Positions 4,783-31,380 of a stretch of 36,479 nt of DNA are shown one piece after another. Both the position numbers and the translations under genes were made by a program. Every line of letters starts with the position of its first letter. Positions within the stretch are counted from its first letter, which is position 1. Below the pieces are notes generated by a model. It was not told the DNA's origin. It searched no databases and saw only the letters and a program-made list of their open reading frames with translations. The stretch is from contig LBTS01000016.1 of assembly GCA_000992165.1 (NCBI GenBank), forward strand, positions 1-36,479. Reading direction: 5' to 3'. This DNA comes from Candidatus Moranbacteria bacterium GW2011_GWC2_37_8. Lineage in GTDB: Bacteria > Patescibacteriota > Minisyncoccia > Moranbacterales > GWC2-37-73.

Positions 4783-4870
4783 GACTTGAATTAAGAATCA
4801 TGAATTAAGAATCATGAGAAATTAAATTCCTGCATTCCGTGATTCATGATTCATAATTCTTGATTCATGC
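4783..4870. repeat. Heptad repeat array, GAATCAT family, inverted halves
   Basis: GAATTAA-GAATCAT units repeated with seven-base spacing are followed about 30 bases later by complements (TGATTCATGATTCATAATTCTTGATTC). A hairpin could form. It ends next to the stop of the membrane protein gene at 4872. Confidence 0.8.
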
Positions 4871-7508: not shown

Positions 7509-8738
7509 ATGTCAGAAGATATAATAGCAGATAAATGGTACAAAGCTTTCAGTGGGGTTAAAGCCACTATAATGATTACGGTTTTGATTGATGTGATTGG
7601 CATAGGAGTTATAATCCCGGTGCTGCCTTTTTATGTGGAGAGTTTCGGCGCGTCATCTTTTATTGTCACGCTACTCTTTTCTGTTTTTGCTTTCTTTTCG
7701 TTTATCAGTGGTCCATTTTTGGGAGCATTGTCAGACCGCATCGGCAGAAGGCCAGTGCTTATCTTAAGTATTGCCAGCACAGCTCTGGGATGGTTTGTTT
7801 TTGCGGCGGCCAACAGCATCTGGGTTTTATTTATTGGAAGAATTATTGATGGTATGGCTGCTGGTAATTTTCCAATCGCGCAAAGTTATTTGGTGGATAT
7901 TGCTAAAACAGACAAGCAGCGGACAACAAATCTTGGACTCATTGGCGCCGTCTTCGGAATTGGATTCATTATAGGTCCTGTGATTGGCGCGACGCTTGGA
8001 GCTATTTCTCCATCTCTTCCATTTTGGTTTGTAGGAACGCTTGCCACTCTTAACGTGATTGCTGCTTATTTTTTCTTGCCGGAGACGCATAATAACAGAA
8101 GTGTGGGAAAAAAGCTACCAATAAATCCATTGCTTCCAATTTTAGGTGCGGCGAAGGATAAAGTTCTGAGGTCTCGCTATCTGGCATGGTTTCTTTTTGG
8201 AACGGCATTTGCCGGAATGCAAGCAATCTTCGCGCTTTTTGCTAAAGTCGTGTTTGGTTTTTCAGCCACAGCGACAGGATATCTTTTCACTGCGATGGGA
8301 ATAATTTTGGTTATTAACCAAGGCTTTGCGCTTAAAAAAGTTTGGCTGAAATATTTCAAAGAAATTGATTTAGAGATTTGGTTTTTTGTGGTGATGATGT
8401 TGGGATTTGTTTTGCTTGATTTGAAAATTTTTGCATTTTTTGCCATCGGTCTTATTCTGACAACTATTGGACAATCAACTCTGCGAGTGGTGATGTCTAG
8501 CGGAGTGGCTGGAGTTGCGGGAAATCAAAGAAGAGGGGAAGTGCTTGGAATAATGGCTTCGATAATGTCAGTATCAATGATTCTTGGACCGCTGGTCGCT
8601 GGCGCGCTGTTTGAAGTTAATGTTCAACTTCCGTACCTTCTGAATGTTGTACTTTTGTTTGCGGCTTTTTTGATAATGAAAAAATGTTGCAGCCATGAGA
8701 AAATAGTTTTGCATGAAAGTGTGGAAGTGGTAGGGTAG
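7509..8738 (+). CDS. Major facilitator superfamily exporter, TetA-like
   Basis: 409 residues with about twelve hydrophobic segments. The first half carries the drug-proton antiporter signatures: motif A in loop 2-3 (GALSDRIGRRPVL) and the motif C-like GAVFGIGFIIGPVIG in helix 5. VIGIGVIIPVLPFYV in helix 1 resembles tetracycline-type exporters. The substrate cannot be told from sequence; many relatives export drugs or metabolites. It follows the lexA-like gene by 17 bases. The final residues (ESVEVVG) are encoded by a GTAGGAA-type heptad array running past the stop, so the natural C-terminus may have been altered by the repeat. Confidence 0.9.
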   Translation: MSEDIIADKWYKAFSGVKATIMITVLIDVIGIGVIIPVLPFYVESFGASSFIVTLLFSVFAFFSFISGPFLGALSDRIGRRPVLILSIASTALGWFVFAAANSIWVLFIGRIIDGMAAGNFPIAQSYLVDIAKTDKQRTTNLGLIGAVFGIGFIIGPVIGATLGAISPSLPFWFVGTLATLNVIAAYFFLPETHNNRSVGKKLPINPLLPILGAAKDKVLRSRYLAWFLFGTAFAGMQAIFALFAKVVFGFSATATGYLFTAMGIILVINQGFALKKVWLKYFKEIDLEIWFFVVMMLGFVLLDLKIFAFFAIGLILTTIGQSTLRVVMSSGVAGVAGNQRRGEVLGIMASIMSVSMILGPLVAGALFEVNVQLPYLLNVVLLFAAFLIMKKCCSHEKIVLHESVEVVG

Positions 8739-8770
8739 GAATTAGGAGGTATGATGTAGGAAGTAGGGGA
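8719..8770. repeat. Heptad repeat array at the MFS gene 3' end
   Basis: Words AAGTGGT, AGGGTAG, GAATTAG, GAGGTAT, GATGTAG, GAAGTAG follow each other at seven-base spacing, overlapping the last codons of the MFS gene and ending at the MITE-like element. Confidence 0.6.
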
Positions 8771-9547: not shown

Positions 9548-9563
9548 CAGGGCTCAAGTCATT

Positions 9564-9626
9564 AGTAATCAGTAACCAGTAACCAGTAACCAGTAACCAG
9601 TAACCAGTAATTAGTAATCAGTCAAC
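9564..9626. repeat. Tandem heptamer array AGTAAYC (nine units)
   Basis: Nine consecutive seven-base units, five of them identical AGTAACC, the others AGTAATC, AGTAATT and AGTCAAC. This is the cleanest example of the heptad family in the window. It lies between the GHKL-like and cupin genes. Confidence 0.95.
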
Positions 9627-12865: not shown

Positions 12866-13972
12866 ATGTTAGAATTTCTCAAAGGCAAAAAAAACCATTT
12901 CATTGGAATAGATTTTGGAACTTCCTCAATTAAAGTTGTGGAGATTTCTTATCAAAATCAGAAACTTCATTTGGAAAACTATGGAGTTGTTGATTTAAAT
13001 TGGTCAAATCATGGCGATGAAAAGGCCAATATGAAAGCAGCTTCATTTGAACAAAAATTGAACGAGTCTCTTAAGAGCTTGTTATTGAAGATGAATTTAA
13101 GTTCCGGTATGGCATATGTTTCCATCCCTGGATTTAGTGGGTTGATTACAATAATTGAACTTCCAGAAATGGAAAGCGAAGAATTGGCTAAGGCGATTAA
13201 ATTTGAAGCTCATAAATATATTCCAAGTTCATTGGATGAAATTGCCATGAGTTGGGAGATTATTGAACATGCTGAAAAAGATGCAGGAGCAGCTTTGAAT
13301 GCTGGAAAGTCTAGTGCATTTGGAAAGAAGATAAAAGTTTTACTGGTTGCTGCTCCTAAACGTGATATTGAAAGATACGACAGGCTAGTTTCAGGTTCAA
13401 TGCTTGATGTGGGTGCGATAGAATTGGAAACTTTTTCAATTGCAAGGTCTTTGGTTGGTGATGATAACGGAAGTTTTTTCATTATTGATATCGGTTCTCG
13501 CGCAACGAATATAATCTTGGTTGAAAATGGAGTAGTTAAGGTTAATCGCAATATTGATGCCGGTGGAAATGAAATCACGAATGCCATATGTGACAGCATG
13601 AATATATCGCGTCAGCGAGCCGAGATTTTCAAAAAAGGAGACAAAGATTTTCTTAACACTACTGAAACATCAATTGTTATTCCAGTTCTTGAACTCATAG
13701 TTGGCGAATCTTTAAGAATTATGAATGCATATAAAGAAAAGAATAAAGATTCAAAGATAACGTCAGCGATGCTTTCAGGTGGAACTGCGACGATGAAAGG
13801 TCTTGATCAATATTTTTCACGCTCACTTGGAGTTGATGTTACAATCGGAGATCCATGGAAAAAAGTAGCTGTTGAACCAGCTATAAAACCTCTTGCTGAT
13901 GATTTAGGTTGTTCATTTGCGGTTGCGCTTGGTTTAGCTATGAGAGGTGTGGAAGATTATAAGAGAGGATAA
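12866..13972 (+). CDS. pilM: Type IV pilus assembly protein PilM
   Basis: 368-residue actin-like ATPase that binds the cytoplasmic tail of PilN and forms the inner platform of the pilus machine. The fold is shown by the phosphate-1 loop GIDFGTSSIKVVEI at residues 14-27, the phosphate-2 region IIDIGSRATNIILVENG, and the adenosine loop AMLSGGTATMKGL near residue 300. Length is normal. It is first in the cluster, with a promoter at 12757. Confidence 0.95.
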   Translation: MLEFLKGKKNHFIGIDFGTSSIKVVEISYQNQKLHLENYGVVDLNWSNHGDEKANMKAASFEQKLNESLKSLLLKMNLSSGMAYVSIPGFSGLITIIELPEMESEELAKAIKFEAHKYIPSSLDEIAMSWEIIEHAEKDAGAALNAGKSSAFGKKIKVLLVAAPKRDIERYDRLVSGSMLDVGAIELETFSIARSLVGDDNGSFFIIDIGSRATNIILVENGVVKVNRNIDAGGNEITNAICDSMNISRQRAEIFKKGDKDFLNTTETSIVIPVLELIVGESLRIMNAYKEKNKDSKITSAMLSGGTATMKGLDQYFSRSLGVDVTIGDPWKKVAVEPAIKPLADDLGCSFAVALGLAMRGVEDYKRG

Positions 13973-14007
13973 TTTATAAAATAAATAATTTAAATTACAC
14001 TTGTAAA

Positions 14008-14050
14008 TGCTAATTGGCTAATTGCTAATTTGAAAATTAGCATAATGCAT
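14008..14050. repeat. Short GCTAATT repeat and hairpin
   Basis: GCTAATTG-GCTAATT-GCTAATT followed by GAAAATTAGC gives a small inverted array between pilM and pilN. It belongs loosely to the heptad class. Confidence 0.45.
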
Positions 14051-14057
14051 TAAAAAA

Positions 14058-14609
14058 ATGACTACAATAAATTTGCATCAAAACCAAGAAGAAACTCAGC
14101 GAAAAATTTCAGCTCGTACAGCTAATGGAGGTTTCTTCTTTTCATTAGCCATTTTAATTCTTACGGTCGCCGCTCTTTTTGGTATTCGATTTTATATTGC
14201 TTCAGTTGTGAAACAAAATAAAGCGTTAGCTGAAAGCGTAAAGCAGCAAAATGAAAGTCTGGCTGGTGTGAATAGTTTGCAACGTATTTTAGATATGCAA
14301 AGTCGTTTAGCTCAAATAAAAGGTAATTTAGAAATAAAAGACGGAAAGGTCGGTCAATTGAAAATGACTCAAGTTCTTGATGGTTTGGAAAAAGACCTAA
14401 GTTCTGGAGTTGTTGTTTCCTCATATTCTTACGATAGAGAATCAGGCAGTGTTACGGTTACATTTGAATCTAAGAATTTCAATGATACAGCTAGACAAAT
14501 TTTGAATTTCAAGAAATCCACTTATTTCTCCGACGCGCTTTTGGGTAATGTAGCCAGAGCTGAAAAAGGTGTTACGTCTGACATGAGTATGACTGTAAAA
14601 GTAGATTAA
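14058..14609 (+). CDS. pilN: PilN-like pilus assembly membrane protein
   Basis: 183 residues. A short cytoplasmic N-terminus contains INLHQNQ, the PilM-binding INLLP-like peptide. One membrane helix (about 28-48) follows, then a coiled-coil stretch (LAESVKQQNESLAGVNSLQRIL) and a small C-terminal domain. This matches PilN, which with PilO aligns the pilus machine in the envelope. Sequence identity within this family is always low, so the call rests on peptide, topology and position between pilM and pilO. Confidence 0.85.
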   Translation: MTTINLHQNQEETQRKISARTANGGFFFSLAILILTVAALFGIRFYIASVVKQNKALAESVKQQNESLAGVNSLQRILDMQSRLAQIKGNLEIKDGKVGQLKMTQVLDGLEKDLSSGVVVSSYSYDRESGSVTVTFESKNFNDTARQILNFKKSTYFSDALLGNVARAEKGVTSDMSMTVKVD

Positions 14610-14689
14610 TGTAGATAGTTTTGTTAAAATAACTTTTAAATATCTATCCCGGTGTTGTTTATTGAAACATTACTTTGGATGATAAAAAA

Positions 14690-15526
14690 ATGCGATTAAA
14701 ATTTCTTTTCTTTCCACTGATTATTATTATTTCACTCTCAATATTTATTGGGTACATTTGGCCAGAACTCGAAAACTTGAAGAATGCCAACGAAGAAAAA
14801 ATATCAAATCAAGATGCATTAAAAGCTATCAAAGATAAAAAGACAGCTATTCAAACAATTGATGCTCAGATAAATAGTGATAGTGAAGGTGAAACTATCA
14901 TAAATAATTATCTTCCAAATAGGAAAATAGAAGAAAGGATTTTGACCGGAGTTAATTTTTTGGCTACTGATTCCGGTGTTTCTTTGGCTAATATATCCTT
15001 GCAGGAAGGGTCGGACGCTGCAAATAAAAATGATGAAGCACAATCACTTTCATTGATGCCTCTTGCAGCTGTAGTTGGTGCTGCTGCTAATCAATCAAAT
15101 CAGAATTCTAAAGATGCTAAAGATGTTAGTGATATTCAATTTACTCAAACATCCATTACCGTTAGTGGTGACTATGATAAAATAAGATTGTTTCTGGATC
15201 AAGTTCAGCGAATGTCAATATTTAATTCAATTAAATCATTGTCAATTACTTCTCAATATTCAGAAGATGAAACTAAGAAAGACACTACTGTTGAAGCTAA
15301 TGAACAAACTTCACAGGCTGAATCCTCTACAAACTTGTCTGCCAATGTGGTGATTGATTTCGGTTGGATGAATACGGTTAAAATTGATAATCAGAAAATT
15401 GCAAGTTTTAAAGCTGGTCTTGATAATTCCACAATTGCTGCTGTTAAACAATACGTTTCTCAAAAAGCTCCTGGAGCTGATAGAACTGGTGATAGTAATG
15501 GAAAGAAGAACCCATTTCTTCCTTGA
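14690..15526 (+). CDS. pilO: PilO-like pilus assembly membrane protein
   Basis: About 278 residues with one N-terminal membrane helix (FLFFPLIIIISLSIFIGYI), a coiled-coil segment (ELENLKNANEEKISNQDALKAIKDKKTAIQ) and a C-terminal ferredoxin-like domain with the SGDYDKIRLFLDQVQR strand-helix typical of PilO. It is longer than classical PilO (about 200) through a low-complexity Ser/Ala/Asn/Gln-rich centre. The tracked start is TTG at 14675; ATG at 14690 is used here, neither having a ribosome site. No pilP or pilQ follows, fitting a cell without an outer-membrane secretin. Confidence 0.82.
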   Translation: MRLKFLFFPLIIIISLSIFIGYIWPELENLKNANEEKISNQDALKAIKDKKTAIQTIDAQINSDSEGETIINNYLPNRKIEERILTGVNFLATDSGVSLANISLQEGSDAANKNDEAQSLSLMPLAAVVGAAANQSNQNSKDAKDVSDIQFTQTSITVSGDYDKIRLFLDQVQRMSIFNSIKSLSITSQYSEDETKKDTTVEANEQTSQAESSTNLSANVVIDFGWMNTVKIDNQKIASFKAGLDNSTIAAVKQYVSQKAPGADRTGDSNGKKNPFLP

Positions 15527-15589
15527 TAGTGATATTAGAGCAGGCTCTAAGGAAATACTTTTCCGTCTTAAATAGAAATAATTTTTTCC

Positions 15590-17299
15590 ATGAATCAGGA
15601 TAATACTTCGCAAAGCACTGCGGATCAGACTTTGATATTAGATCCAAAAGAAATTGAACTGAAAGCTGTTGAAAAAATGGCGGGCGAATTGAATATGCCT
15701 TTTTTGCAAGAAGTGCCAAAAATAGATGATGGAATTTTGCAAATTATTTCTCAGGATGTAGCATCTGAAAATAAAATCATTGCTTTTGAACGTTCAAATA
15801 GTAACGTTAAAATTGCTATCGTTGATCCTCAAAATATTAATGCTCTTAATATTCTGAGGTTTATTGCTGAAAAGAAAAAGTTGGAATTTGATTTATACCT
15901 AGTTTCCGCTGAGATGTTCAGGGAAATGTCTGAGCAATATTCAGGTGGCGCTGAAAAAGCAATTGAAGAGGCTATGGAATCAATGCAGGATGAGGATGGA
16001 TTGGTTGGAGATGAGGTTTATGATAATGGTGAAGAAGAGAAATCTCCAATTGATAACATGCAGAATGCTCCCGTGACTAAATTGCTTAGTGTTATCATTA
16101 AACATGCGATTGAAGGTAAGGCTAGTGATATTCACATTGAACCACTCGGAAAAGAATATCGAGTTAGATTTAGAGTTGATGGAATTTTGCATTCTTCGCT
16201 TGCTATTCCGAAAGGTGTTGGACGAGCAATTGTTTCGCGCATTAAGATTCTTTCAAATTTGAAGATTGATGAAAAGCGAAAACCACAAGACGGACGTTTT
16301 AAGGTTGTTGAAAGTGGTCGGCGAGTTGATTTTCGAGTTTCTACTTTGCCAATTACGGAAGGTGAAAAAATTGTGCTTCGTATTTTGGATACGGGAAACA
16401 AAGTGATTGACCTTAAGAGCATGGGCTTGATGGGTAGAGGTAATGATATTTTGGTGAAAAATATCATGGAGCCATTCGGAATCATTTTAATGACTGGACC
16501 GACGGGTAGCGGAAAGTCAACAACTCTTTACGCTTGTTTGGATATATTAAACAAAGAAGAACGCAATATCATTACCTTGGAAGATCCAGTGGAATATACG
16601 ATTGCCGGGATTAATCAGAGTCAAATAAACCCAGAAATAGGTTACACTTTTGCTAGTGGGCTTCGCAGTATTCTGCGACAGGACCCAAATGTTATCATGG
16701 TTGGAGAGATTCGAGATAGCGAAACCGCGGAGCTCACAATTCATGCAGCTCTTACGGGACATTTAGTGCTTTCAACTTTACACACAAACAGCTCCATTGG
16801 TGCTATTCCGCGCCTGGTTGATATGGGTATCGAATCTTTTTTGCTTGCATCATCTCTTAGAGTGGTAGGCGCGCAAAGACTTGTGAGAAGAATCTGCAAT
16901 GAGTGCAAAGAAGAGGTTACCATCCAACCAAGAGTGATGGAATTTATTAAGTCTCAAATTGAGAATATTCCGGCAGTCGAGATTAAAAAATATGAATTGG
17001 ATTTATCGGACGGTATCCATATGTTTCAAGGTAAGGGTTGTGACGAATGCAGCAACACGGGATATCGAGGAAGAATCGCGATTTTTGAAGCATTGGAAGT
17101 TGATGATGGTTTGAAAGAAATAATTTCTGAGAGAAATGGAAATGAAGTTGATATTCAAAAATACGCAGAAAAACAGGGAATGATAACTATTAAGCAAGAT
17201 GGTATTTTGAAGGTTTTGCGAGGATTTACAACGTTATCAGAAGTTGAGCGTGTTACGGAAGGAAGCAAGAGTGTTGGAGGTGCAGTCGAAGATGATTAG
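15590..17299 (+). CDS. pilB: Type IV pilus extension ATPase PilB
   Basis: 569-residue GspE/PilB-type hexameric ATPase that powers pilin polymerisation. The N-terminal MshEN-like domain (about 20-130) is followed by an acidic linker, then the N2 domain with ASDIHIEPLGKEYRVRFRVDG. The motor carries Walker A GPTGSGKSTTLYA near residue 303, an Asp box (ITLEDPVEY), Walker B (RQDPNVIMVGEIRD) and the His box (GHLVLSTLHTN). The zinc-binding CNEC...CDEC pairs near 435 and 483, typical of PilB and absent from PilT, identify it as the extension motor. Confidence 0.97.
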   Translation: MNQDNTSQSTADQTLILDPKEIELKAVEKMAGELNMPFLQEVPKIDDGILQIISQDVASENKIIAFERSNSNVKIAIVDPQNINALNILRFIAEKKKLEFDLYLVSAEMFREMSEQYSGGAEKAIEEAMESMQDEDGLVGDEVYDNGEEEKSPIDNMQNAPVTKLLSVIIKHAIEGKASDIHIEPLGKEYRVRFRVDGILHSSLAIPKGVGRAIVSRIKILSNLKIDEKRKPQDGRFKVVESGRRVDFRVSTLPITEGEKIVLRILDTGNKVIDLKSMGLMGRGNDILVKNIMEPFGIILMTGPTGSGKSTTLYACLDILNKEERNIITLEDPVEYTIAGINQSQINPEIGYTFASGLRSILRQDPNVIMVGEIRDSETAELTIHAALTGHLVLSTLHTNSSIGAIPRLVDMGIESFLLASSLRVVGAQRLVRRICNECKEEVTIQPRVMEFIKSQIENIPAVEIKKYELDLSDGIHMFQGKGCDECSNTGYRGRIAIFEALEVDDGLKEIISERNGNEVDIQKYAEKQGMITIKQDGILKVLRGFTTLSEVERVTEGSKSVGGAVEDD

Positions 17300-17339
17300 T
17301 AAATGAATGATTTTATATTTTAATTTCTGAAATAAGTTT

Positions 17340-17720
17340 ATGGAAAATAACAGGAAAATATTAATAGTTGAGGATGATATTTTTATTAGAGATATCTATA
17401 AAGTAAGATTTGAACAAGAAGGTTTCGAAGTAACGGTGGCGGAAAATGGCATTGTTGGCTTGGAAAAGATGCAGCAAGGTGCTAATCCTGAGATTATATT
17501 ATTGGACATTATCATGCCTGGAATGAATGGAATTGAAGTTTTGAAAAAAATAAAGGCTAATGATGAATGGAAAGATATCCCCGTGATTATGTTGACGAAT
17601 ATTTCTGAAAAAGAAAAAGTTACTGAAAGCATGGAACTTGGAATAAAAGAATATTTAATCAAATCGCATTTCACGCCATCCGAGGTTGTGCAAAAAGTCA
17701 ATGCTTTGTTGAATATGTAA
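17340..17720 (+). CDS. CheY-like single-domain response regulator
   Basis: 126 residues, one receiver domain with every active residue: acidic pair E11-D12-D13, phospho-accepting D56 (LLDIIMP), T86 (MLTN) and K108 (LIKS). No output domain. Its place between pilB and pilT suggests it modulates pilus extension or retraction by docking to the motors or another partner. No histidine kinase lies in the window. It contrasts with the pseudo-receiver at 6119, which has lost the phospho-site. Confidence 0.93.
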   Translation: MENNRKILIVEDDIFIRDIYKVRFEQEGFEVTVAENGIVGLEKMQQGANPEIILLDIIMPGMNGIEVLKKIKANDEWKDIPVIMLTNISEKEKVTESMELGIKEYLIKSHFTPSEVVQKVNALLNM

Positions 17721-17734
17721 AAATTTGTTATAAT
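17706..17734 (+). promoter_or_regulatory. Internal promoter upstream of pilT
   Basis: TTGTTG, 17 bases, TATAAT with an extended TGT. It overlaps the last codons of the receiver gene and could express pilT-pilC separately from pilM-pilB. Confidence 0.65.
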
Positions 17735-17746
17735 ATAAAAAACATA

Positions 17747-17802
17747 AAGTTACAAGTTACTAGTTACTAGTTACTAGTTACTGGTTACTAATTATTAGTT
17801 GA
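17747..17802. repeat. Tandem heptamer array TAGTTAC upstream of pilT
   Basis: Eight seven-base units (AAGTTAC, AAGTTAC, TAGTTAC three times, TGGTTAC, TAATTAT, TAGTTGA), the reverse complement of the AGTAAYC family. It ends four bases before the pilT ATG, so it forms the leader. Confidence 0.92.
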
Positions 17803-17805
17803 ATT

Positions 17806-18888
17806 ATGTCTACAGCTCACGGCGAACAAAGAATTAAAAGTTTATTACGTTTGGTTGCTCAACAAAATGCTTCCGACTTACATTTAGTGGTGGGAAGATT
17901 TCCTACTTTGCGTATGGATGGTCGCTTGTATCCATTGACTCAAGAAAGTATTTTGTCTGCTGATGATACGCAAGCGTTGACTGATGCAATCACTACTGAA
18001 GATAATAAAAAACGTCTAGTCGATGAAGGTCAAGTTGATTTTTCTTATAATTTTGAAGATAAGGCGCGTTTCAGAACTAATATTTTTTATCAGCAGGGTA
18101 ATCTTAGTATTGCCATGCGTATGGTTGCTGGGCGCATAAGAACTCTTGAAGAGCTGAATATTCCTCCGGCACTTTATGAATTTACTCGTCAAACACAAGG
18201 ACTTCTTTTGATTACCGGTCCTGTTGGACATGGAAAATCAACCACGCTTTCCGCTTTGATAGATTTCATTAATCATAATGATGATAAGCACATAATAACG
18301 ATTGAAGATCCCATTGAATATGTATATGAGCAGGATAGATGCATAATCAATCAACGAGAAATTGGTAAGGATACGAAATCTTTCCCTGATGGACTTAGAA
18401 GTGTGTTTCGAGAAGATGCTAATGTTGTTTTGATTGGTGAGCTTAGAGATTTGGACACGATAAGTACAGCTATGACTGCAGCTGAAACAGGACATTTGAT
18501 TTTAGCAACCTTGCATACCAATGATACTTCTCAAACAATTGACCGTATCATTGACGTTTTTCCTGCGCATCAACAAAATCAAGTTCGAAGTCAGTTGGCT
18601 AGCGTGCTCTTGGGCGTGGTTTCTCAGCGCTTGGTTCCTCGTGTTGGAGGAGGACGAATCCCAGCTATGGAAATAATGATGAACAATCATGCTGTAGAAA
18701 ATTTGATACGTGAAAATAAATCTTATCAAATAGATTCTGTAATTGAAACTGGCTTGAGAGAAGGAATGGTTTCATTGGATAAATCATTAGCAGATCTGAT
18801 TCAGAGAGGTCTTATTACATTGGATGACGCTATGGTGTATTCCAAAAATCATGATTATTTGCAGATGCTCATTTCTCGAAAAGATTAA
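17806..18888 (+). CDS. pilT: Type IV pilus retraction ATPase PilT
   Basis: 360 residues, the usual PilT length, without the N-terminal extension and zinc fingers of PilB. It shows ASDLHLVVGRFPTLRMDG at the start, Walker A GPVGHGKSTTLSA near residue 138 (His replaces the usual Ser, Val the usual Thr), the Asp box ITIEDPIEY, Walker B FREDANVVLIGELRD and the His box GHLILATLHTND. It depolymerises pili and produces the pulling force for motility or DNA uptake. It has its own promoter and a heptamer-array leader. Confidence 0.96.
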   Translation: MSTAHGEQRIKSLLRLVAQQNASDLHLVVGRFPTLRMDGRLYPLTQESILSADDTQALTDAITTEDNKKRLVDEGQVDFSYNFEDKARFRTNIFYQQGNLSIAMRMVAGRIRTLEELNIPPALYEFTRQTQGLLLITGPVGHGKSTTLSALIDFINHNDDKHIITIEDPIEYVYEQDRCIINQREIGKDTKSFPDGLRSVFREDANVVLIGELRDLDTISTAMTAAETGHLILATLHTNDTSQTIDRIIDVFPAHQQNQVRSQLASVLLGVVSQRLVPRVGGGRIPAMEIMMNNHAVENLIRENKSYQIDSVIETGLREGMVSLDKSLADLIQRGLITLDDAMVYSKNHDYLQMLISRKD

Positions 18889-18951
18889 GTTTAATAATAT
18901 ACAAATGAGGGGTTAATATAAATAATAAATTTGTGTGTATGATAAAAAAGT

Positions 18952-19036
18952 AATCAGTAAACAGTAATCAGTAATCAGCAAATTGATTTTTTCTTTTGCA
19001 TTACCGATTACCAGTTACTTGTTGCTAGTTACTAAT
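18952..19036. repeat. Inverted heptamer array upstream of pilC
   Basis: Five forward units (AGTAATC, AGTAAAC, AGTAATC, AGTAATC, AGCAAAT), a T-rich spacer, then reverse units (GCATTAC, CGATTAC, CAGTTAC, TTGTTGC, TAGTTAC). The two halves can pair into a long hairpin directly in front of the pilC start. Confidence 0.9.
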
Positions 19037-19038
19037 TT

Positions 19039-20250
19039 ATGAAATTTTCATTTCAAGCGAAAAGTGCGGAAGGTGAAATTAGGGAAGGCCGTATTGAGGC
19101 TACTAATAGTGAGGCGGCAGTAGCAATGCTTCAAGAAAGAGGTTTGGTTCCATTGATGCTGGAAAAGGAAACTGAAATTCCGAGTTTGATTAAGGATTTG
19201 CAACACATCTGGGACGGCGTGAATTTGCGTGAGCTCTCGGTTTTCTATCGCCAATTGGCAACTTTGATTGAAGCGAAAGTTTCAATTATTTCAGCGTTGC
19301 GTGCAGTGGGTGATCAGTCTGACAACTTATATCTCAGTACGGTGATAAAGGAGATGGTAAACGATATTGAGGACGGTGTAACTTTTTCAGAATCAATGTC
19401 TAAACATCCGGAAGTTTTCGCAACTTTGGCTGTGAGTATGGTTAAGGCAGGTGAACTTTCCGGTAATTTGCAGCGATCAGTGGTTTTCTTGGCCGATAAT
19501 ACTGAAAAAAATTATGAATTGAATGCTAAGATTAGAGGAGCATTGTTTTATCCCGGATTTGTTTTGTCAGCATCTGTAATAATTGGATTCGTTGTGTTTA
19601 CTGTTGTTTTGCCAAAACTTACCGGAATTTTTAAGGATTTTAATGTGGCGATTCCTTGGTATACTAAGATGTTTATGTTTATTGGGGATTTTATGAGTTC
19701 ATTCTGGTGGGTTGTTGGTATCATTCTTTTGGCTATCGTTGGAGGATTCTTCTATTACATTAAAACAGAAGATGGCCGTAAGGAATGGGACACCATCAAG
19801 ATGAAAATACCGGTTATTGGAAAACTTTTTCAATATGTCTATCTTGCTCGTTTTTCTGAAAATTTAGCAGTACTGTTGGACGGAGGAATCCCGATTGTTA
19901 GAGCTTTGGTTATTGTGAGTGAAGTTGTTGATTCAACAAGTTATGAAAGTGTAATTTTGAGAGCTGCCGATGAAGTTAAAACAGGAGGTTCTATGAGTAC
20001 TGTTTTTGCACGCTCTTCGCAATTTCCACCGATTGTTTCCCAGATGGTGAAAATTGGAGAAGATGCAGGAAAGATCAGCGAAGTGCTTAATAATATGTCG
20101 AGATTTTATAATCAAGAAACTGATCGTGTGACGCGCAATCTTTCAACCATGCTTGAACCGATTCTTATCACAGGTCTTGGTCTAGGTGTTGGAGTTTTGG
20201 TTTTTGCAATTTTGATGCCAATCTATAATATTGCCGGACAAGTGCAATAA
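19039..20250 (+). CDS. pilC: Type IV pilus platform protein PilC
   Basis: 403-residue inner-membrane platform protein of the GspF family. Two homologous cytoplasmic helical domains are visible: one around LRELSVFYRQLATLIEAKVSIISALRAV (residues 60-90), the second around YLARFSENLAVLLDGGIPIVRAL (residues 270-300). Membrane segments lie near 170-195, 212-236 and 375-397 (GLGVGVLVFAILMPIYNI). It couples PilB/PilT rotation to pilin insertion. An inverted heptamer array lies directly before the ATG. Confidence 0.96.
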   Translation: MKFSFQAKSAEGEIREGRIEATNSEAAVAMLQERGLVPLMLEKETEIPSLIKDLQHIWDGVNLRELSVFYRQLATLIEAKVSIISALRAVGDQSDNLYLSTVIKEMVNDIEDGVTFSESMSKHPEVFATLAVSMVKAGELSGNLQRSVVFLADNTEKNYELNAKIRGALFYPGFVLSASVIIGFVVFTVVLPKLTGIFKDFNVAIPWYTKMFMFIGDFMSSFWWVVGIILLAIVGGFFYYIKTEDGRKEWDTIKMKIPVIGKLFQYVYLARFSENLAVLLDGGIPIVRALVIVSEVVDSTSYESVILRAADEVKTGGSMSTVFARSSQFPPIVSQMVKIGEDAGKISEVLNNMSRFYNQETDRVTRNLSTMLEPILITGLGLGVGVLVFAILMPIYNIAGQVQ

Positions 20251-20296
20251 TATAAAATTGTTTCAGTTTAGTTAAATAATATGTTATTATAATGTT

Positions 20297-20761
20297 ATGA
20301 TTAATCGAAAAAAAAGAACCGAAACTAAAGGTTTCACTTTGATTGAACTTTTGATAGTGATTGCGATTATTGGTATTTTGGCAGGTGTGGTTTTGGTTAG
20401 CACGCAAGGAGCTGTAGTGAAGGCCAGGAGAGCATCCGCATTGACTACCGCATCTAGTACTATGACAGAATTGGTAACATGCCAAGATGATGGAGGCGAA
20501 GCAACCAGTAGCGCACCTGTGGCAGGAGAACTTGTTTGCTGTGCGAGCGCTGGTGCTTGCACGGATATTGCAGCCAATAGGGTTGATGGGCATAGTGCAA
20601 CTTGGCCGTCAATGGCAAATAATCAATGGCAATATGCAAGTGGTTCTGCGGCGGGAACAGTGGCAAGTGGAACATATGAATTCACTTTGACAAAAATTGG
20701 TGGAACCGGCGCTGGCGATGATTTGATTACCTGTGACATGGCGACTAATGGTTGCATTTAA
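20297..20761 (+). CDS. Type IV pilin (major-type), first of three
   Basis: 154 residues with a class III leader ending KG, then [22 protein letters not shown]: prepilin cleavage after G12, Glu at +5, and a hydrophobic N-terminal helix. The C-terminal domain holds five Cys, including CC and CDMATNGC, suited to disulfides, and is Ala/Gly/Ser/Thr-rich. Substrate of PilD encoded downstream. A TATAAT box lies only three bases before the ATG, so its use is uncertain. Either this or the next gene may encode the main pilus subunit. Confidence 0.93.
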   Translation: MINRKKRTETKGFTLIELLIVIAIIGILAGVVLVSTQGAVVKARRASALTTASSTMTELVTCQDDGGEATSSAPVAGELVCCASAGACTDIAANRVDGHSATWPSMANNQWQYASGSAAGTVASGTYEFTLTKIGGTGAGDDLITCDMATNGCI

Positions 20762-20795
20762 AAAAATGTAGGTTGAGTGAAAGTTTAAATATTCG

Positions 20796-20824
20796 CTAAA
20801 AAGAACGGGTCGATTTTTTAGCAA
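20796..20824 (+). terminator. Weak hairpin between two pilin genes
   Basis: GCTAAAAA / TTTTTTAGC stem around AAGAACGGGTCG. It could attenuate transcription or protect the upstream pilin mRNA; the stem is AT-rich. Confidence 0.4.
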
Positions 20825-20852
20825 AAGATTAATAATATAAAATTAAAAATAT

Positions 20853-21266
20853 ATGAAAAAATATACAAAAGGTTTCACATTGATTGAACTTTTGATTGTA
20901 ATTGCAATCATCGGTATTTTGGCTGGAGTTATCTTGGTAAGCACAAGTTCAGCAAGAAGCAAAGCTAATGATGCCAAATTTAAATCATACGCCGCAAGTA
21001 TGAAATCTGCTATAGTTATGGCATGTGGAAATGGTGGATCTAACGTAAACCTTTTAACTGGCGCAGGCACCACTGGTTTCACAGTACTTCCACCTATTGA
21101 TGTTGCTATATCTTCAACATCCACTAATGCTAATGGTGGTTATGACTGCGATAATGATACTCCTGGTGTTATTCTGACTCCAGCTGCTGCACTTGGAGTT
21201 AGTGCGGCATGTCGCGCAGCCACAACCGTTACTCAAACGTCAGTTACTACACCTGCTGGTTGCTAG
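20853..21266 (+). CDS. Type IV pilin, second
   Basis: 137 residues. A very short leader MKKYTKG is cleaved before [30 protein letters not shown], so the N-terminal helix is near identical to that of the previous pilin (and of the one at 35248) while the C-terminal domains differ. Cysteines in the head domain (ACG, YDC, ACR, AGC) can form disulfides. It is followed by a strong terminator, and a short leader plus its own terminator would suit a major, highly expressed pilin. Confidence 0.93.
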
Positions 21267-21287
21267 TATTTCAAAGTTTTCTTAAAA

Positions 21288-21315
21288 GATGCGACTTAAT
21301 CGTCGCATCTTTTTT
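21288..21315 (+). terminator. Terminator after the second pilin
   Basis: GATGCGAC / GTCGCATC hairpin with a 6-base loop followed by six T, 22 bases after the stop. Confidence 0.9.
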
Positions 21316-21340
21316 GTTTATCACGAAAAAATGTTATAAT
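21313..21340 (+). promoter_or_regulatory. Promoter of the third pilin-like gene
   Basis: TTTGTT, 16 bases, extended TGT-TATAAT, about 30 bases before the ATG at 21373. It directly follows the terminator, so this gene is a new transcript. Confidence 0.55.
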
Positions 21341-21372
21341 AAAAAAATAAAAGGTATTAAAAATTATCTTCA

Positions 21373-21915
21373 ATGGCTAAAAAAATAAATTTTAGAAAAG
21401 GGTTTACGACTAAAGAAGTTGTAATTGCTACTGGAGCGCTAGTTATTGTCGGAGTCATATCTTTTGCAGTCTTGAGTGGCATGAGCAGTTCAGTTTCTTT
21501 GGCTAAAGAAGCTAAATTTGTCAGTTATGCTTCACAGATGCTAAAAGTGATAGATAGGGCTAATGCCTTGTCTTCTTTTAATAGAATAACAACTCCTGAT
21601 TGGTCATGTTTGGGAACGTATAGCGCGAAACCTGGTGATTTTTGCTGGGGAGACGAAAATTCCAATATCATAAATAATAGCAATGCAGATTTGGCACTTG
21701 CGACAATAGAATCGATTCCAAAAGGCCAAATGTCACCATATAAACTTTTGTATAATCGCGGTGCAGTTTTCAGGATAAATGCGCGAAATATCGAGGTTAA
21801 GATTTATGTAGGAGATACTGCAAGAACTAAAATAGTTTGCAGTCAACTCAACATGATTCAAGATCCTGATGATAATTTATCTTGTATTTTACCTTCACCT
21901 ATTTTGAAAAACTAA
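21373..21915 (+). CDS. Divergent pilin-like protein
   Basis: 180 residues. The leader ends RKG, followed by FTTKEVVIATGALVIVGVISF: the Gly cleavage site, Phe and Glu at +5 are kept, but the usual [15 protein letters not shown] core is replaced by TTKEVVIATGALVIV. A helical stalk (SVSLAKEAKFVSYASQMLKVIDRAN) and a Cys-containing head follow. It is probably processed by PilD and may be a minor pilin or a tip component. A heptamer CATATAA array follows the stop. Confidence 0.82.
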   Translation: MAKKINFRKGFTTKEVVIATGALVIVGVISFAVLSGMSSSVSLAKEAKFVSYASQMLKVIDRANALSSFNRITTPDWSCLGTYSAKPGDFCWGDENSNIINNSNADLALATIESIPKGQMSPYKLLYNRGAVFRINARNIEVKIYVGDTARTKIVCSQLNMIQDPDDNLSCILPSPILKN

Positions 21916-21950
21916 TAACTAAAAAAAACTAAAAAACTAATAACTGCTAA

Positions 21951-21983
21951 CATATAACATATAACATATAACATATAACATAC
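21951..21983. repeat. Tandem heptamer array CATATAA
   Basis: Four perfect CATATAA units plus CATAC. The word differs from the AGTAAYC family, but the seven-base period is the same. It lies just upstream of the pilD promoter. Confidence 0.92.
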
Positions 21984-21995
21984 GGTATACGATTG

Positions 21996-22025
21996 TTGGC
22001 ACATTTTTTCTTTTTGTGGTAAAAT
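21996..22025 (+). promoter_or_regulatory. Promoter of pilD
   Basis: TTGGCA, 18 bases, TAAAAT, about 40 bases before the ATG. Confidence 0.55.
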
Positions 22026-22071
22026 AGTATTAATTAGTCATATATTATTATTTATTGATTATTAGCATATT

Positions 22072-22866
22072 ATGCTTATCATTTTCTTTATCCTTGGTTT
22101 GATTATTGGCAGCTTTCTTAATGCTGTCGTTTATCGTTTGGAAGCAGTCGAATCATTGCTTGAAAGATCGCATTGTCCACATTGCAAGAAAAAGGTCAGA
22201 TGGTTTGATAATGTTCCTGTTATTAGTTTTATTTTGCTTAGCGCGAGATGTCGAGATTGTGGAGAAAAAATTTCTTGGCAATATCCTGTTGTTGAATTTA
22301 TAACTGGAATAGTGTTTGCGCTGATAGGCAATTATTTTTTTAATCTCGTCGATTTTTCTTCTTGGGCATTGACCGCTTATTATTTGGTCGTCTTTTCGAT
22401 CCTGCTTATTATTTTCGTATATGATTTTAAATATATGGAAATCCCTATGCTTATCCTGTGGATTGGTGTGGCTGTGAGTTTGGTATATTTTCTCTATGCT
22501 GATTGGCAAAGTTTTAGCTCACTATCTTCAATCTTGGAATTAAGAACTATTTCTGGTATTCTTGGTGGTTTAGTGGCAGGAGGATTTTTCTTTTTCCTGG
22601 CTGCTTACTCAAAAGAGACTTGGATGGGATACGGCGATGCATATCTTGGTCTTTTGGCGGGATTGGTTGTGGGTTGGCCAAATATTTGGGGCGCCTTAAT
22701 GTTGTCATTTATTATTGGCGCACTTATTAGTGTCGGGCTTATTGCTGTTAGGAAAAAAACTATGAAAAGTCAGGTGCCTTTTGCTCCATTTCTGATTACG
22801 GGAGTTTTTCTGATGGTTATCTTGCCTCAAATGTTCCCAATGCTAGCAGTCTTGTTCGATTTTTAA
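22072..22866 (+). CDS. pilD: Prepilin peptidase/N-methyltransferase PilD
   Basis: 264-residue polytopic membrane aspartyl protease (family A24) that cleaves the KG/RG-F leaders of the neighbouring pilins and methylates the new N-terminus. The N-terminal domain has the zinc tetracysteine C35/C38/C60/C63 of bifunctional enzymes. Catalytic aspartates are D118 (VYDFKYMEIP) and D189 in GYGD, followed by YLGLLAGLVVGW. About seven hydrophobic segments are visible. It sits in the middle of its substrates. Confidence 0.96.
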   Translation: MLIIFFILGLIIGSFLNAVVYRLEAVESLLERSHCPHCKKKVRWFDNVPVISFILLSARCRDCGEKISWQYPVVEFITGIVFALIGNYFFNLVDFSSWALTAYYLVVFSILLIIFVYDFKYMEIPMLILWIGVAVSLVYFLYADWQSFSSLSSILELRTISGILGGLVAGGFFFFLAAYSKETWMGYGDAYLGLLAGLVVGWPNIWGALMLSFIIGALISVGLIAVRKKTMKSQVPFAPFLITGVFLMVILPQMFPMLAVLFDF

Positions 22867-22913
22867 TGCGCTAGTTTCAAAAGTGTTTAAAAGTGAATAT
22901 TATAAAAACAAAC

Positions 22914-23951
22914 ATGAAAAAAAATATCCATAGAAAAATATCCTCTGCTTTTGATTTTACAATTTATTCTTCAATAAAGCGGGGATTTTCTATTATGGAA
23001 TTGTTGGTAGTGATGGCGATTTTGTCTATCATGACTGGGGTTCTTTTTGTTTCAGTTGGTGATAGTTCAAAAAAGGATGCTGAAGTTGCCGCTCAGCAAA
23101 TTTCCGCACAACTCAAGGCCTTACAAAATGAGGCCTTGACTGGAAAAAGAATTGAGGTTCCTGCTAATAGTGGAACATTTATTTCTGCTTGCTATTTTGT
23201 TTTTGATACCACTGCTCTGACTTCGTATAAGGTTTCATATTTGGATTGTTCAGCTGCGCCGCAACCAATCGGAAGCGATTTGATTGTGGATTTGAAAAAG
23301 AAAAAGGTTACTGTGGATGCTCACACTATTGTTTTTACTTCTCCACGCGGAGAAGTTTCTGGTAATGACAGTGATGTTGTAATTTCATCAACCAAGGATC
23401 CAAGCGTGAAGAAATTTGTAAATATGAGTTCAGCTGGCAGCACGGCAACATCTGACACAAATTTGACTGTAACTTGCACTTCTTGGACTTACAGCGATTG
23501 GGGCACTTGCCAAGCGGATAGCACTCAAACAAGAACCATTACAAGTTCCAGTCCTGTTGGTTGCACGGGAGGAAATCCTGCTGCCTTATCTCAAGGTTGC
23601 GTATATGTACCACCGGTTGAAACTTGCACTTCTTGGACTTACAGCGCATGGGGCGCTTGTCAACCAGATAATACTCAAACAAGAACCATTACAAGTTCCA
23701 GTCCTGTTGGTTGTACTGGAGGAACTCCTGAAAGTTTAACTCAAAGTTGCACATATGTTGCGCCTGCTGGAATATGGAATCTCCAGACTAGTTGGTATAT
23801 AGGCGAATATTGTGAGTCTGGCGCGTTTACGCCTTTAGCTGGGACTAGTTGCACTATTGGAGAACCGTCACGAGACGAATATATTAATTGCACCGATCAA
23901 GGGGATGATAGTTATTGCTGTGATCGGATGGGAGGGCACTTGTGTCAGTAG
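22914..23951 (+). CDS. Pilin-like protein with two thrombospondin-type repeats
   Basis: About 345 residues (the track uses GTG at 22893; ATG at 22914 is chosen). A long leader ends KRG, then FSIMELLVVMAILSIMTGVLFVS: a PulG/GspH-like minor pilin N-terminus. After a beta-rich domain come two nearly identical repeats of about 45 residues (CTSWTYSDWGTCQ and CTSWTYSAWGACQ ... SSSPVGCTGG), resembling thrombospondin type 1 modules with spaced Trp and paired Cys. A further Cys-rich tail (SYCCDRMGGHLC) ends the protein. Such modules in other systems bind surface glycans or proteins, so a tip adhesin is a reasonable inference. Confidence 0.85.
   Translation: MKKNIHRKISSAFDFTIYSSIKRGFSIMELLVVMAILSIMTGVLFVSVGDSSKKDAEVAAQQISAQLKALQNEALTGKRIEVPANSGTFISACYFVFDTTALTSYKVSYLDCSAAPQPIGSDLIVDLKKKKVTVDAHTIVFTSPRGEVSGNDSDVVISSTKDPSVKKFVNMSSAGSTATSDTNLTVTCTSWTYSDWGTCQADSTQTRTITSSSPVGCTGGNPAALSQGCVYVPPVETCTSWTYSAWGACQPDNTQTRTITSSSPVGCTGGTPESLTQSCTYVAPAGIWNLQTSWYIGEYCESGAFTPLAGTSCTIGEPSRDEYINCTDQGDDSYCCDRMGGHLCQ
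23472..23760 (+). repeat. Tandem coding duplication (two thrombospondin-like units)
   Basis: Blocks starting at 23472 and 23623, 151 bases apart, share long identical runs, e.g. CTCAAACAAGAACCATTACA and the stretch around TTCCAGTCCTGTTGGTTG. The duplication looks recent at the DNA level. Confidence 0.85.
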
Positions 23952-25759: not shown

Positions 25760-28068
<2,309 letters not shown>

Positions 28069-28082
28069 TATCTAGGGTAATA

Positions 28083-28200
28083 AATCTCAAATCTCAATGA
28101 CAAATGCCAAATAAAATCCAAAATCTTAAATCCTAAATTTTGGGAATTGGGATTTGAGTCATTTATTTGATATTTAGATTTTGACATTGAGATTTGCAAA
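28083..28200. repeat. Large inverted array, AAATCTC family, before gatC
   Basis: CAAATCTCAATG at the left pairs with CATTGAGATTTG at the right, with related words (AAATCTT, AAATCCT, GGGATTTGAG, TTTAGATTTTG) between. It fills the whole ligA-gatC gap and ends four bases before the gatC start. Confidence 0.85.
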
Positions 28201-28496: not shown

Positions 28497-28690
28497 AATA
28501 ACTAGCAACTAGCAACTCGTAACTCGTAACTAGTAAAATATGTATTCTTTATAACTAGCAACTAGTAACTCGTAACTAGTAACTCGTAACTAGTAAAATG
28601 GGTATCCTTTCAATTATTGCTGATTACCAGTTACTGATTACTAGTTATTTTAAGTTAGATTACCAGTTACTGATTACTAGTTATTTTAAA
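28497..28690. repeat. Long heptad array in the gatC-gatA gap
   Basis: About 195 bases consisting almost entirely of heptads. Two forward blocks of AACTAGC/AACTCGT/AACTAGT units each end in AAAATRKGTATYCTTT. Two near-identical reverse blocks follow (GATTACCAGTTACTGATTACTAGTTATTTTAA). The forward and reverse halves can pair. It separates two genes normally close together. Confidence 0.93.
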
Positions 28691-28692
28691 TT

Positions 28693-30165
28693 ATGATTAG
28701 AGATTTACATCAGAAACTTATAAATAAGGAAATTACTTCAGTTGAATTGACGGAGCAATATTTTTCAGTGATCGAAGAAAAGGATAAGGAGATTGGCGCG
28801 TATTTGACGCTAACTAAAGAACTTGCTATGCAGCAAGCCAGATTTGTTGACGAAAAGATTTCAAAAGGTGAAGAAATAGATTTATTGGCCGGAATACCAT
28901 GCGCAATCAAAGACAATCTTTGTGTGGATGGGTATCGAACAACGGCTGGAAGTAAAATTTTGGATAATTATATTGCACCTTATGATGCGACTGTGATTAA
29001 GCGGCTCAAAGAAAGCGCTGCTGTTATTCTTGGCAAGACTAATATGGATGAATTTGCCATGGGCTCATCAACTGAAAACAGCGCCTATCAAATAACAAGA
29101 AATCCAGTCGACACTTCAAGAGTTCCTGGAGGGTCTTCTGGCGGAAGTATTGCTGCTGTGGCGGCAGGTGAAGCTGTTTGGTCATTGGGAACAGACACTG
29201 GCGGCTCTATTCGTCAACCAGCTTCTCTTTGCGGAGTGGTTGGACTCAAACCGACTTATGGACGAGTTTCGCGTAGCGGCGCAATTGCTATGGCCTCGAG
29301 TCTTGATCAAATAGGACCAGTTGCGACAAGTGTAGAAGACGTTGCTATCATTTTGTCTCGCATTTCTGGACAAGACCCTATGGATGCAACTACTGCAAGA
29401 AGCGGAGATAAAAAATACGAAGACTATTTGACTGGTGATATTACTGGTAGCATTATCGGTGTTCCGAAAGAATATGTCGAAAGCTTGGAAGGTGAAATAA
29501 AAGAAGTTTTTGAAAAGTCATTGGAAAAATTCAAAAGTCTTGGCGCAAAAATTGAAACTATAAGTCTTCCGAATGCTCAGTATGCATTGCCTACATATTA
29601 CATAATTATGACAAGTGAGGTTAGTTCGAATCTCGCTCGTTTTGATGGGATTAAATATGGCTTAAAAGTGAATGACTTATCCGAATCAGTATCCGAATTA
29701 AATCCAAATGAAAACTCAAATGCAATTCCAAGAACTTTATTGGAAACATATTTGGACACTAGAAAAATTGGATTCGGCGACGAAGTTAAGAGGAGAATAA
29801 TGCTTGGAACGTACGCTCTAAGTAGCGGCTACTATGACGCATACTATGTTAAGGCTCAAAAGGTTCGAGCTTTGATTCGCAAGGATTTCGAGGAAGCTTT
29901 CAAAAAAGTTGATTTTATTTATTCTCCGACAACTCCTGAAGTTGCATTTAAGATTGGTGAAAAAACCAGTGACCCACTCAAGATGTATCTTGGTGATATT
30001 TATACTGTGACTGCAAACATGGCTGGCGTTCCAGCAATTTCATTTCCTATTGGGTTTCAAACCGTTGAAGACAAAGACCTTCCGATTGGTGGACAGATAA
30101 TGGGAAAATGGTTTGATGAAGAAGGAGTACTTAATGTGGCACATACGTACGAAATAAATAAATAG
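28693..30165 (+). CDS. gatA: Asp-tRNA(Asn)/Glu-tRNA(Gln) amidotransferase subunit A
   Basis: 490-residue amidase-signature enzyme that releases ammonia from glutamine for transfer to mischarged tRNA. The catalytic Ser-cisSer-Lys triad is visible: Lys73 in CAIKDNL, the Gly/Ser-rich GGSSGGS, and TDTGGSIRQPA with the nucleophilic Ser. The glutaminase-type tail MAGVPAISFPIGF is present. Normal length. The start codon directly follows a reverse heptad array. Confidence 0.96.
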   Translation: MIRDLHQKLINKEITSVELTEQYFSVIEEKDKEIGAYLTLTKELAMQQARFVDEKISKGEEIDLLAGIPCAIKDNLCVDGYRTTAGSKILDNYIAPYDATVIKRLKESAAVILGKTNMDEFAMGSSTENSAYQITRNPVDTSRVPGGSSGGSIAAVAAGEAVWSLGTDTGGSIRQPASLCGVVGLKPTYGRVSRSGAIAMASSLDQIGPVATSVEDVAIILSRISGQDPMDATTARSGDKKYEDYLTGDITGSIIGVPKEYVESLEGEIKEVFEKSLEKFKSLGAKIETISLPNAQYALPTYYIIMTSEVSSNLARFDGIKYGLKVNDLSESVSELNPNENSNAIPRTLLETYLDTRKIGFGDEVKRRIMLGTYALSSGYYDAYYVKAQKVRALIRKDFEEAFKKVDFIYSPTTPEVAFKIGEKTSDPLKMYLGDIYTVTANMAGVPAISFPIGFQTVEDKDLPIGGQIMGKWFDEEGVLNVAHTYEINK

Positions 30166-30201: not shown

Positions 30202-30238
30202 TTTCTAATTTCTAATTTCTAATTTAGAATTTTGAATC
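30202..30238. repeat. Tandem heptamer array TTTCTAA
   Basis: TTTCTAA three times, then TTTAGAA and TTTTGAA, in the 175-base gap after gatA. The rest of that gap is AT-rich with no other clear signal. Confidence 0.8.
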
Positions 30239-30340
30239 AATTTTTAATGAATTAATTTTTAATCATTAAAGCATTGAGATATTCGAATTTTATTCGAAAT
30301 TTTTGCTCCAAGCTTATCCCTTGAGGACAAAATTCATAAT

Positions 30341-30892
30341 TTGAAATTATTTAAATTCGTGGATTACGACCTGCAAAATTTTATAGACATACTCGTTGCG
30401 ATATTAAGTGGTTTTTATTACTCCTCTTTCATGTTGACTGTAAAAATTTTAGCTGGCATATATCTGTTCGTACTATTGGTTGATATTATCTTGATGCTTA
30501 TTCTTCGCGATGTTCCGTCGCATCTTCGTGTTGGATTAAGAGGTACTGACATTCCACTGGTTTCAAAAAGTAAGATGCAAAAACGTTGGGATAAAGTTAA
30601 GAAGCGACTTAAAGATGGAAATCCATCGCAATATAAAGTTGCGATTATTGAAGCTGACGCGATTGTAGAAGAAATTTTGGATGGTATTGGATATAAGGGT
30701 GCCAACATGACAGAGAAACTTGAAAGCGTTGGTGCGGCTCATTTGGATGATCATTTGGAATCCTTGAAGGGTGTGCATTTGATAAGAAATAGGATTGTGC
30801 ACGAGGCAGACTATGAGATTGATGAAACTACTGCAAGTGCTGTAATTGGCGTTTATGAGAACTTCTTGAAATACCTTGAATTTATGGAATAA
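30341..30892 (+). CDS. Membrane-anchored HEPN-like protein of unknown function
   Basis: 183 residues. Two hydrophobic segments (about 13-33 and 35-55) are followed by a basic linker and an all-helical C-terminal domain (about 97-180). That domain contains R149-N-R-I-V-H154, the RxxxxH pattern of HEPN domains, many of which are RNases or toxins; the context LIRNRIVHEADYEI also resembles DUF4145-like HEPN relatives. Whether it is catalytic cannot be told. No antitoxin-like MNT gene is adjacent. The start is TTG at 30341; an ATT at 30332 behind GAGG is a possible alternative. A strong terminator follows. Confidence 0.75.
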   Translation: MKLFKFVDYDLQNFIDILVAILSGFYYSSFMLTVKILAGIYLFVLLVDIILMLILRDVPSHLRVGLRGTDIPLVSKSKMQKRWDKVKKRLKDGNPSQYKVAIIEADAIVEEILDGIGYKGANMTEKLESVGAAHLDDHLESLKGVHLIRNRIVHEADYEIDETTASAVIGVYENFLKYLEFME

Positions 30893-31305: not shown

Positions 31306-31314
31306 ATAAATTGT

Positions 31315-31380
31315 ATAAAGTATTTTGTATAAAGTATAACGTATGAATACATCATACATAATACCAAATACATCATACTG
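31315..31380. repeat. Heptad array GTATAAA between tRNA-Asp and tRNA-Met
   Basis: GTATAAA-GTATTTT-GTATAAA-GTATAAC-GTATGAA, then complementary words (ATCATAC, AATACATCATAC). It lies within the tRNA transcript and may fold as a spacer hairpin. Confidence 0.8.

Follow-up and report, generated by a model that had tools for sequence, protein, structure and literature searches.

Word-independent heptanucleotide arrays in a Moranbacteria genome and the probable role of strand slippage in their origin

The genome of Candidatus Moranbacteria bacterium GW2011_GWC2_37_8 (GCA_000992165.1) carries tandem arrays that keep a seven-nucleotide period while their words vary widely, that are often paired as inverted arms, and that lie both between genes and within the linkers of protein-coding genes. 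The best reading, and in our judgment a probable one, is word-independent strand slippage with a preferred step of 7 (secondarily 8) nt, supplemented by small hairpin elements. The stretch analyzed, hereafter the window, is the 36,479-nucleotide contig LBTS01000016.1. It is contig 16 in a 48-contig draft assembly that totals 825,775 bases (~80% complete). Genome-scale statistics rest on 402 kb of stretches sampled from these 826 kb, relatives were sampled at 1–60 kb each (about 340 kb for the relative G016), and gene calls were ORF-based throughout. Arrays with periods of 4 to 12 were scanned at a strict (score of at least 10) and a looser (at least 8) threshold, with shuffled windows as controls. 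Consensus words were counted after merging rotation and strand, and inverted partners were sought as arrays of the reverse-complement word at most 150 bases away, with shuffled flanks as the control.

Period, words and placement of the arrays

The original prediction had counted at least fifteen places with a seven-base period in the window; TRF returns ~25, and our own scan finds 15 arrays at the strict threshold and 23 at the looser one, against 0.1 and 0.95 in shuffled windows. The other periods from 4 to 12 yield 0–3 arrays each at the strict threshold and 0–6 at the looser one. In the intergenic DNA of the window, identity at lag 7 is 0.348 versus 0.290 after shuffling (z 10.1), with further peaks at lag 14 (z 7.3) and lag 21 (z 4.8) and no excess self-match at lags 5, 6 and 9. 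The genome-wide autocorrelation proposed as a check gives the expected lag-7 peak over the sampled half, independent of word: z is 18–20 at lag 7, 14 at lag 14 and 9 at lag 21, with a weaker signal at lag 8 (z 10.5). The sample holds 86 period-7 arrays, 62 intergenic and 24 within ORFs; some arrays are thus located in genes and not in the gaps. Against these 62, intergenic arrays of period 8 number 19, and most other periods contribute 1–5. Both the array and the lag spectra thus reach their maximum at 7, followed by 8, with 9–13 near chance; this over-representation of 7-nt tandem units relative to other sizes is the pattern of heptanucleotide simple repeats (LSSRs). Intergenic two-copy duplications follow the same preference, with 49 versus 5 expected at 7 nt and 15 versus 1 at 8 nt.

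Across the 86 arrays we counted 39 consensus words, pairs of which differ at up to 4–5 of their 7 bases. All words listed earlier do occur in the window, CTTATAA merely as an imperfect three-unit run at 34331. The contention that the words are many and unrelated is borne out in its first half only, as they partly form a connected mutational family: among the stronger arrays, 29 of 32 distinct words are chained by single substitutions, giving 4 components versus 12 for letter-shuffled words. Units also drift within a single array, as at 1770, where GAATTAT, GAATCAT and GATTCCT occur together. The AGTAAYC array (9557–9626, forward strand; TRF, own scan and DNA folding) had been presented as nine perfect units from 9564. 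In order, these are AGTAATC, AGTAACC five times, AGTAATT, AGTAATC and AGTCAAC; the spacing is thus perfect over all nine units, but identity is limited to five.

Further TRF-detected arrays in the window comprise GTAGGAA (8735–8767), AGTAATC (18945–18982), a perfect fivefold TAACATA (21948–21982), TTACTAG (36261–36295) and AGTTACT, the last lying between the genes for a response regulator and a T2SSE ATPase (17747–17800). A type IV pilus operon (12866–22866) encodes PilM, PilN, PilO, two ATPases, a PilC-like protein, pilins and a prepilin peptidase, and several of its intergenic gaps carry heptad arrays. GTATAAA and AATACAT arrays sit among tRNA genes (31311–31378, TRF; their inverted appearance was judged by eye), tRNAs being the only Rfam matches in the window. 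Separately, a 150-bp direct repeat in two copies, 85% alike (23471–23758), lies within the ORF at 22893–23951.

Inverted arms and dispersed hairpin elements

An inverted partner array was found for 40 of the 86 arrays in the 402 kb sample, versus 3–4.4 expected with shuffled flanks, an arrangement also known from GGGNATC quadruplex repeats; at the stricter score, 28 arrays are paired versus 0.6–0.8 expected. Period-8 arrays are paired likewise (9 of 22 versus 0.6 expected), and the window holds such a period-8 counterpart with the inverted arms AAATTGTT / TTTAACAA (32169–32250, TRF). When eight paired elements were folded as DNA (z -3.4 to -6.2), seven did better than every shuffle and one better than every shuffle except one; the 9564 array showed neither a DNA fold nor an inverted partner. 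Paired elements in the window include a GAATTAT/GAATCAT array that runs on into inverted ATGATTC units (1766–1825, TRF and word analysis), a hairpin with a GAATCAT-type left and a GATTCAT-type right arm (4787–4869, TRF; DNA fold -14.9 kcal/mol, z -3.7), an element with AAATCTC / AAATCCT arms (28082–28195, TRF and copy comparison), and a hairpin of TAACTAG arrays with inverted GATTACCAGTTACT arrays (28499–28699, TRF and DNA folding). The AAATCTC / AAATCCT element resembles the superfamily of a hairpin at 30202–30349, which copy comparison assigns to the GAATTTT/TTTCTAA family with its semi-conserved core. The two arms of a hairpin have their word in common but, over 14 hairpins, not the order of its units (mean p 0.56); recent fold-back copying, sought as mirrored unit order, is accordingly not shown and was rejected. 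Odd-palindromic words were likewise rejected as the cause of the hairpins, since words with 3 bp arms occur at chance frequency (16% vs 16%, 14% vs 14%, 13% vs 13%).

Some inverted pairs are dispersed elements of 110–130 bp. One group shares the core GAATGAAT..AATG..CATT..TCATT..GATTTGATT between GAATTTT- or TTTCTAA-type arms and is present in about nine copies in the 402 kb sample, with more in relatives from several families; the idea of a single core conserved in all hairpins was discarded, as it holds for this family only. An AATCCTA-armed element has copies 88–96% identical in three other genomes (G012, G010 and G014). The dispersed-copy behavior of MITEs and Rickettsia palindromic elements (RPEs) is therefore seen in some hairpin families only, and at one locus (L240:12703) the flanks are too diverged to read a target-site duplication or fixed termini.

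Several smaller elements were observed alongside these. A dispersed, MITE-like element of ~110 bp (L241:9023–9137 and L241:7144–7254) has the ends AATAATACCRAATTAACT / AGTTAATTCGGTAT, and a related insertion of ~95 bp (L241:8870–8956) corresponds to an empty site in G018. A dispersed palindrome, GTCATCTTGAGC...GGAATGAC (L240:19812–19931), has copies in all five relatives searched, and heptad elements of two near-identical genomes differ in whether they contain a 20-bp palindrome resembling CCTGCCTGCCGGTAGGCAGG (L320, which is G018 C84, and L056 near 3050). The module CCCC..GGGGATAAGCTTGAAGCAAAA is common to 30310–30340 of the window, L023 6605–6630 and linker 1 of ligA in L039, adjoining heptad hairpins or lying within the linker.

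These hairpins bring up the most serious alternative, namely that the arrays chiefly represent the arms of mobile palindromic (MITE/REP-like) elements moved by a transposase in trans, the period being a structural fossil and slippage secondary. We regard this as unlikely, although the dispersed families with common cores in the source genome and other genera, the near-identical AATCCTA-armed copies, a site at which two relatives carry different elements and the paired fraction itself speak for it. About half of the arrays, including that at 9564, stand without a partner; ends and core are not constant across word families; and hairpins with period 8 occur too. The gene counts of Y1 transposase, rejected as a driver, do not parallel array density: G013 has no such gene and 35 arrays per 100 kb.

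Arrays inside genes and changes between relatives

The NAD-dependent DNA ligase gene, ligA, is an ORF of 764 aa without an internal stop (25774–28068, forward strand) that contains six arrays. The array of linker 1 (26096–26129, aa 108–119; own scan) forms a 13–16 bp stem with a GTTACCAGTTACTGGTTAC stretch further along the linker. TRF and our own scan together place AGTCACT followed by AAATTCT in linker 2 (26559–26624, aa 262–284), an inverted GTAATCA / ACCAGTT pair in linker 3 (27170–27275, aa 469–501) and a TAGTAAC array in linker 4 (27599–27630, aa 609–619). Because the linkers vary, LigA ranges from 693 to 867 aa in this lineage. Across 29 relatives, 73 period-7 arrays fall in the linkers (13.5 kb) and none in the protein core (50 kb); identity at lag 7 in the linkers is 0.395 versus 0.285 (z 26), the rest being near chance except for multiples of 7 and weaker signals at 9 and 18. 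Stems with a score of at least 10 occur in 26 of 72 linkers versus 1.8 expected. Linker 1 words vary even among species of a single genus, G013 having the AGTAAYC type, G009 the AAATTCC type and G017 the AACAACA type, and G004 and G011 lack the insert. recG repeats the pattern on a smaller scale, with 19 period-7 arrays versus 2, and the recG ORF in the window carries 4.1 copies of CTTGATT in its DEAD domain (2921–2949, aa 349–359; TRF and own scan). The linkers of both genes are free of stops, as with the in-frame insertions of MITEs and RPEs.

Linker 4 of nine relatives has a distinctive stem: past the conserved AVLIA codons come a 4-nt loop, the reverse complement of these codons and then GAATTTC-type heptads. 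The complement is exact over 11–13 nt in seven relatives and imperfect in G007 and G037, and the stem is kept although its arm sequence varies among species (CCGTATTAATCGC, CCGTTTTAATCGC, CCGTTTTGATTGC, GCTTTGCTAATTGC; loci L056, L058, L048, L042 and L038, with the window equivalent near 27570–27640). The kept stem may point to strand-switch copying or correction. In the recG ORF of one relative, G007 (L354), we observed an additional segment of ~140 aa (DLLYEDITYKIRGAVFNVKKQLG...), which may be a GxxExxY-type domain.

The selected-site explanation, in which arrays are retained as binding or structural sites (for a protein reading 7-nt RNA or DNA units, or as terminators), appears improbable. 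MacGregor 2015 argues for such a role of TAACTGA upstream of start codons (PMC4679880), and the hairpins do fold better than shuffles; however, the words drift freely, arrays lie within the ligA and recG linkers, and their presence is patchy among relatives. A terminator role in particular was rejected, as convergent gaps show no enrichment (0.10 arrays per gap versus 0.23 in tandem gaps).

Direct signs of slippage come from the genomes G016 and G018, which are ~93% identical over aligned stretches. Indels within their arrays are whole units—14 nt (2 x AACACAT), 8 nt (TACAAATT), 16 nt (2 x TTATAAAG) and, inside a hairpin element, 7 nt (one AAAATTC unit)—whereas those outside arrays are mostly 1–3 nt or large. 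Such variation in unit number among relatives is a hallmark of LSSRs and indicates strand slippage, on about five events in all from this single genome pair. It upholds slippage as the generating mechanism in the original prediction, which had offered a copying enzyme as the other candidate. A dedicated reverse transcriptase or telomerase-like enzyme writing 7-nt units would explain a constant period with many words, but it is very hard to credit when period-8 arrays have the same anatomy, unit variation is gradual and arrays are widespread in unrelated phyla; no candidate enzyme was seen either, in searches that left RT families aside. At three orthologous sites (L240:9278, L240:12703 and ligA linker 1), a complete array is replaced by one of another word, so recombination or element insertion is needed besides slippage; the swap in linker 1 also alters the adjacent coding sequence, which implies a contribution from allele exchange. 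MutS was not found in the source genome (a draft ~80% complete) and was detected in only 1 of 39 genomes scanned. A small genome in which MutS is missing is consistent with the CPR assignment of the original prediction. Mismatch repair is therefore not what hides shorter units, and its filtering was rejected as the cause of their scarcity, since MutS is absent and yet units of 5–6 nt are hardly or not enriched.

Distribution, published counterparts and proposed mechanism

Period-7 arrays number 21 per 100 kb in the source genome. The corresponding densities are 19 for its own family, 8 both for the order's remaining families and for the remaining orders of the class, and 10 for the phylum's other classes, with patchy occurrence among genomes. 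The proposed comparison with related genomes bore out the lag-7 peak in their samples as well; in other families of the order, lag-7 z is not clearly above neighboring lags, while array counts still are. AGTAAYC, considered as a lineage-specific word, was rejected: although common in the family, it turned up in only 11 of the 192 genomes sampled from the phylum, and many other phyla carry it too. Four perfect AGTAACC units were recovered in more than 120 genome stretches from about a dozen phyla, with hosts including Bacteroidota, Omnitrophota, Poribacteria, Clostridium, Acidobacteria and Chloroflexi. Near those arrays, lag 7 reaches z 24 even after AGTAACC-like words are masked, and inverted partners accompany 31 of the 167 arrays versus 0.7 expected; as these loci were selected for carrying an array, they demonstrate co-occurrence of words and not prevalence.

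Part of this picture is already published: heptanucleotide over-abundance, the slippage idea and, in Xanthomonas, inverted heptamer pairs. As quoted in PMC4679880 and PMC4692102, Mrazek 2007 found that heptanucleotides lead the long simple repeats in abundance in most genomes, and proposed a link of slippage to polymerase contact, 7 nt being suggested as the length that the polymerase holds. Heptanucleotide repeats, noted earlier for filamentous cyanobacteria (STRR), are not confined to them; these accounts report the excess for many bacteria. The present arrays share with the LSSRs, as there summarized, the over-representation of 7-nt units against other long units, and differ in being word-independent within one genome, in their inverted arms and in their in-gene linkers. 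Xanthomonas and Nostoc carry G-rich, quadruplex-folding GGGAATC / GGGGATT repeats, which likewise form largely intergenic 7-nt arrays with inverted pairs, 70–75 per genome in Xanthomonas (PMC4692102). In contrast to that single G-rich word, the present words are many, mostly AT-rich and without G-runs; none of the 39 has a tract of three or more G per unit. TAACTGA repeats occur in Beggiatoaceae, Cyanobacteria and Bacteroidetes, mixed heptamers in Microcystis, and Cyanothece strains differ by indels in 7-nt increments (PMC4679880), all of which recalls our intergenic arrays. However, Beggiatoaceae repeat a single main word a short way upstream of start codons and related words rarely, whereas our arrays use 39 words and also lie in genes. 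Tandem repeats of constant size and variable sequence in Bacillus and other bacteria similarly combine a single unit size with many words per genome, but their units are 52 or 20–21 nt (PMC8161180); our lag-21 peak is a multiple of 7. RPEs place palindromic DNA in frame within housekeeping genes (Ogata 2000, as described in PMC10969869); unlike these conserved families of ~150 bp, as so described, the present arms are drifting heptads and the linkers often have no defined element. In the open-licence literature we found no paper on CPR heptanucleotides, in line with the earlier supposition; as a word-independent feature that reaches into genes and extends across CPR, the pattern appears to be undescribed so far. 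The novelty lies in how these traits come together: arrays in CPR that are word-independent, are often hairpin-armed and build linkers in essential genes.

Under the slippage reading, strand slippage during DNA copying would generate the arrays, the lineage's preferred step being 7 and secondarily 8 nt with any word. A short local word would be duplicated, and the resulting array would lengthen or shorten by whole units and gain substitutions, so that its word drifts. Arrays would survive only where additional DNA is tolerated, in gene gaps and surface linkers such as those of LigA and RecG. About half come as two inverted arms of the same word, possibly produced by strand switching or element copying, and the dispersed palindromic elements of 110–130 bp may also spread arrays. 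The 7-nt preference may originate in the replication machinery, in keeping with the polymerase-contact idea credited to Mrazek 2007. Slippage alone leaves the shared-word inverted arms and the rarity of 5–6 and 9–13 nt steps unaccounted for.

We advance, tentatively, a wider possibility: a bacteria-wide, word-independent process may make 7 (8) nt arrays, pair them as hairpins, work without mismatch repair and keep writing new in-frame linkers into LigA and RecG, essential proteins of replication and repair, its step being a physical property of the replisome. With a peak found across words, in genes, without MutS and across phyla, the polymerase-grip account of 7-nt dominance becomes testable. 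Heptad arrays would supply essential genes with new protein linkers, and annotators should be aware that certain peptides in CPR proteins may be slippage products.
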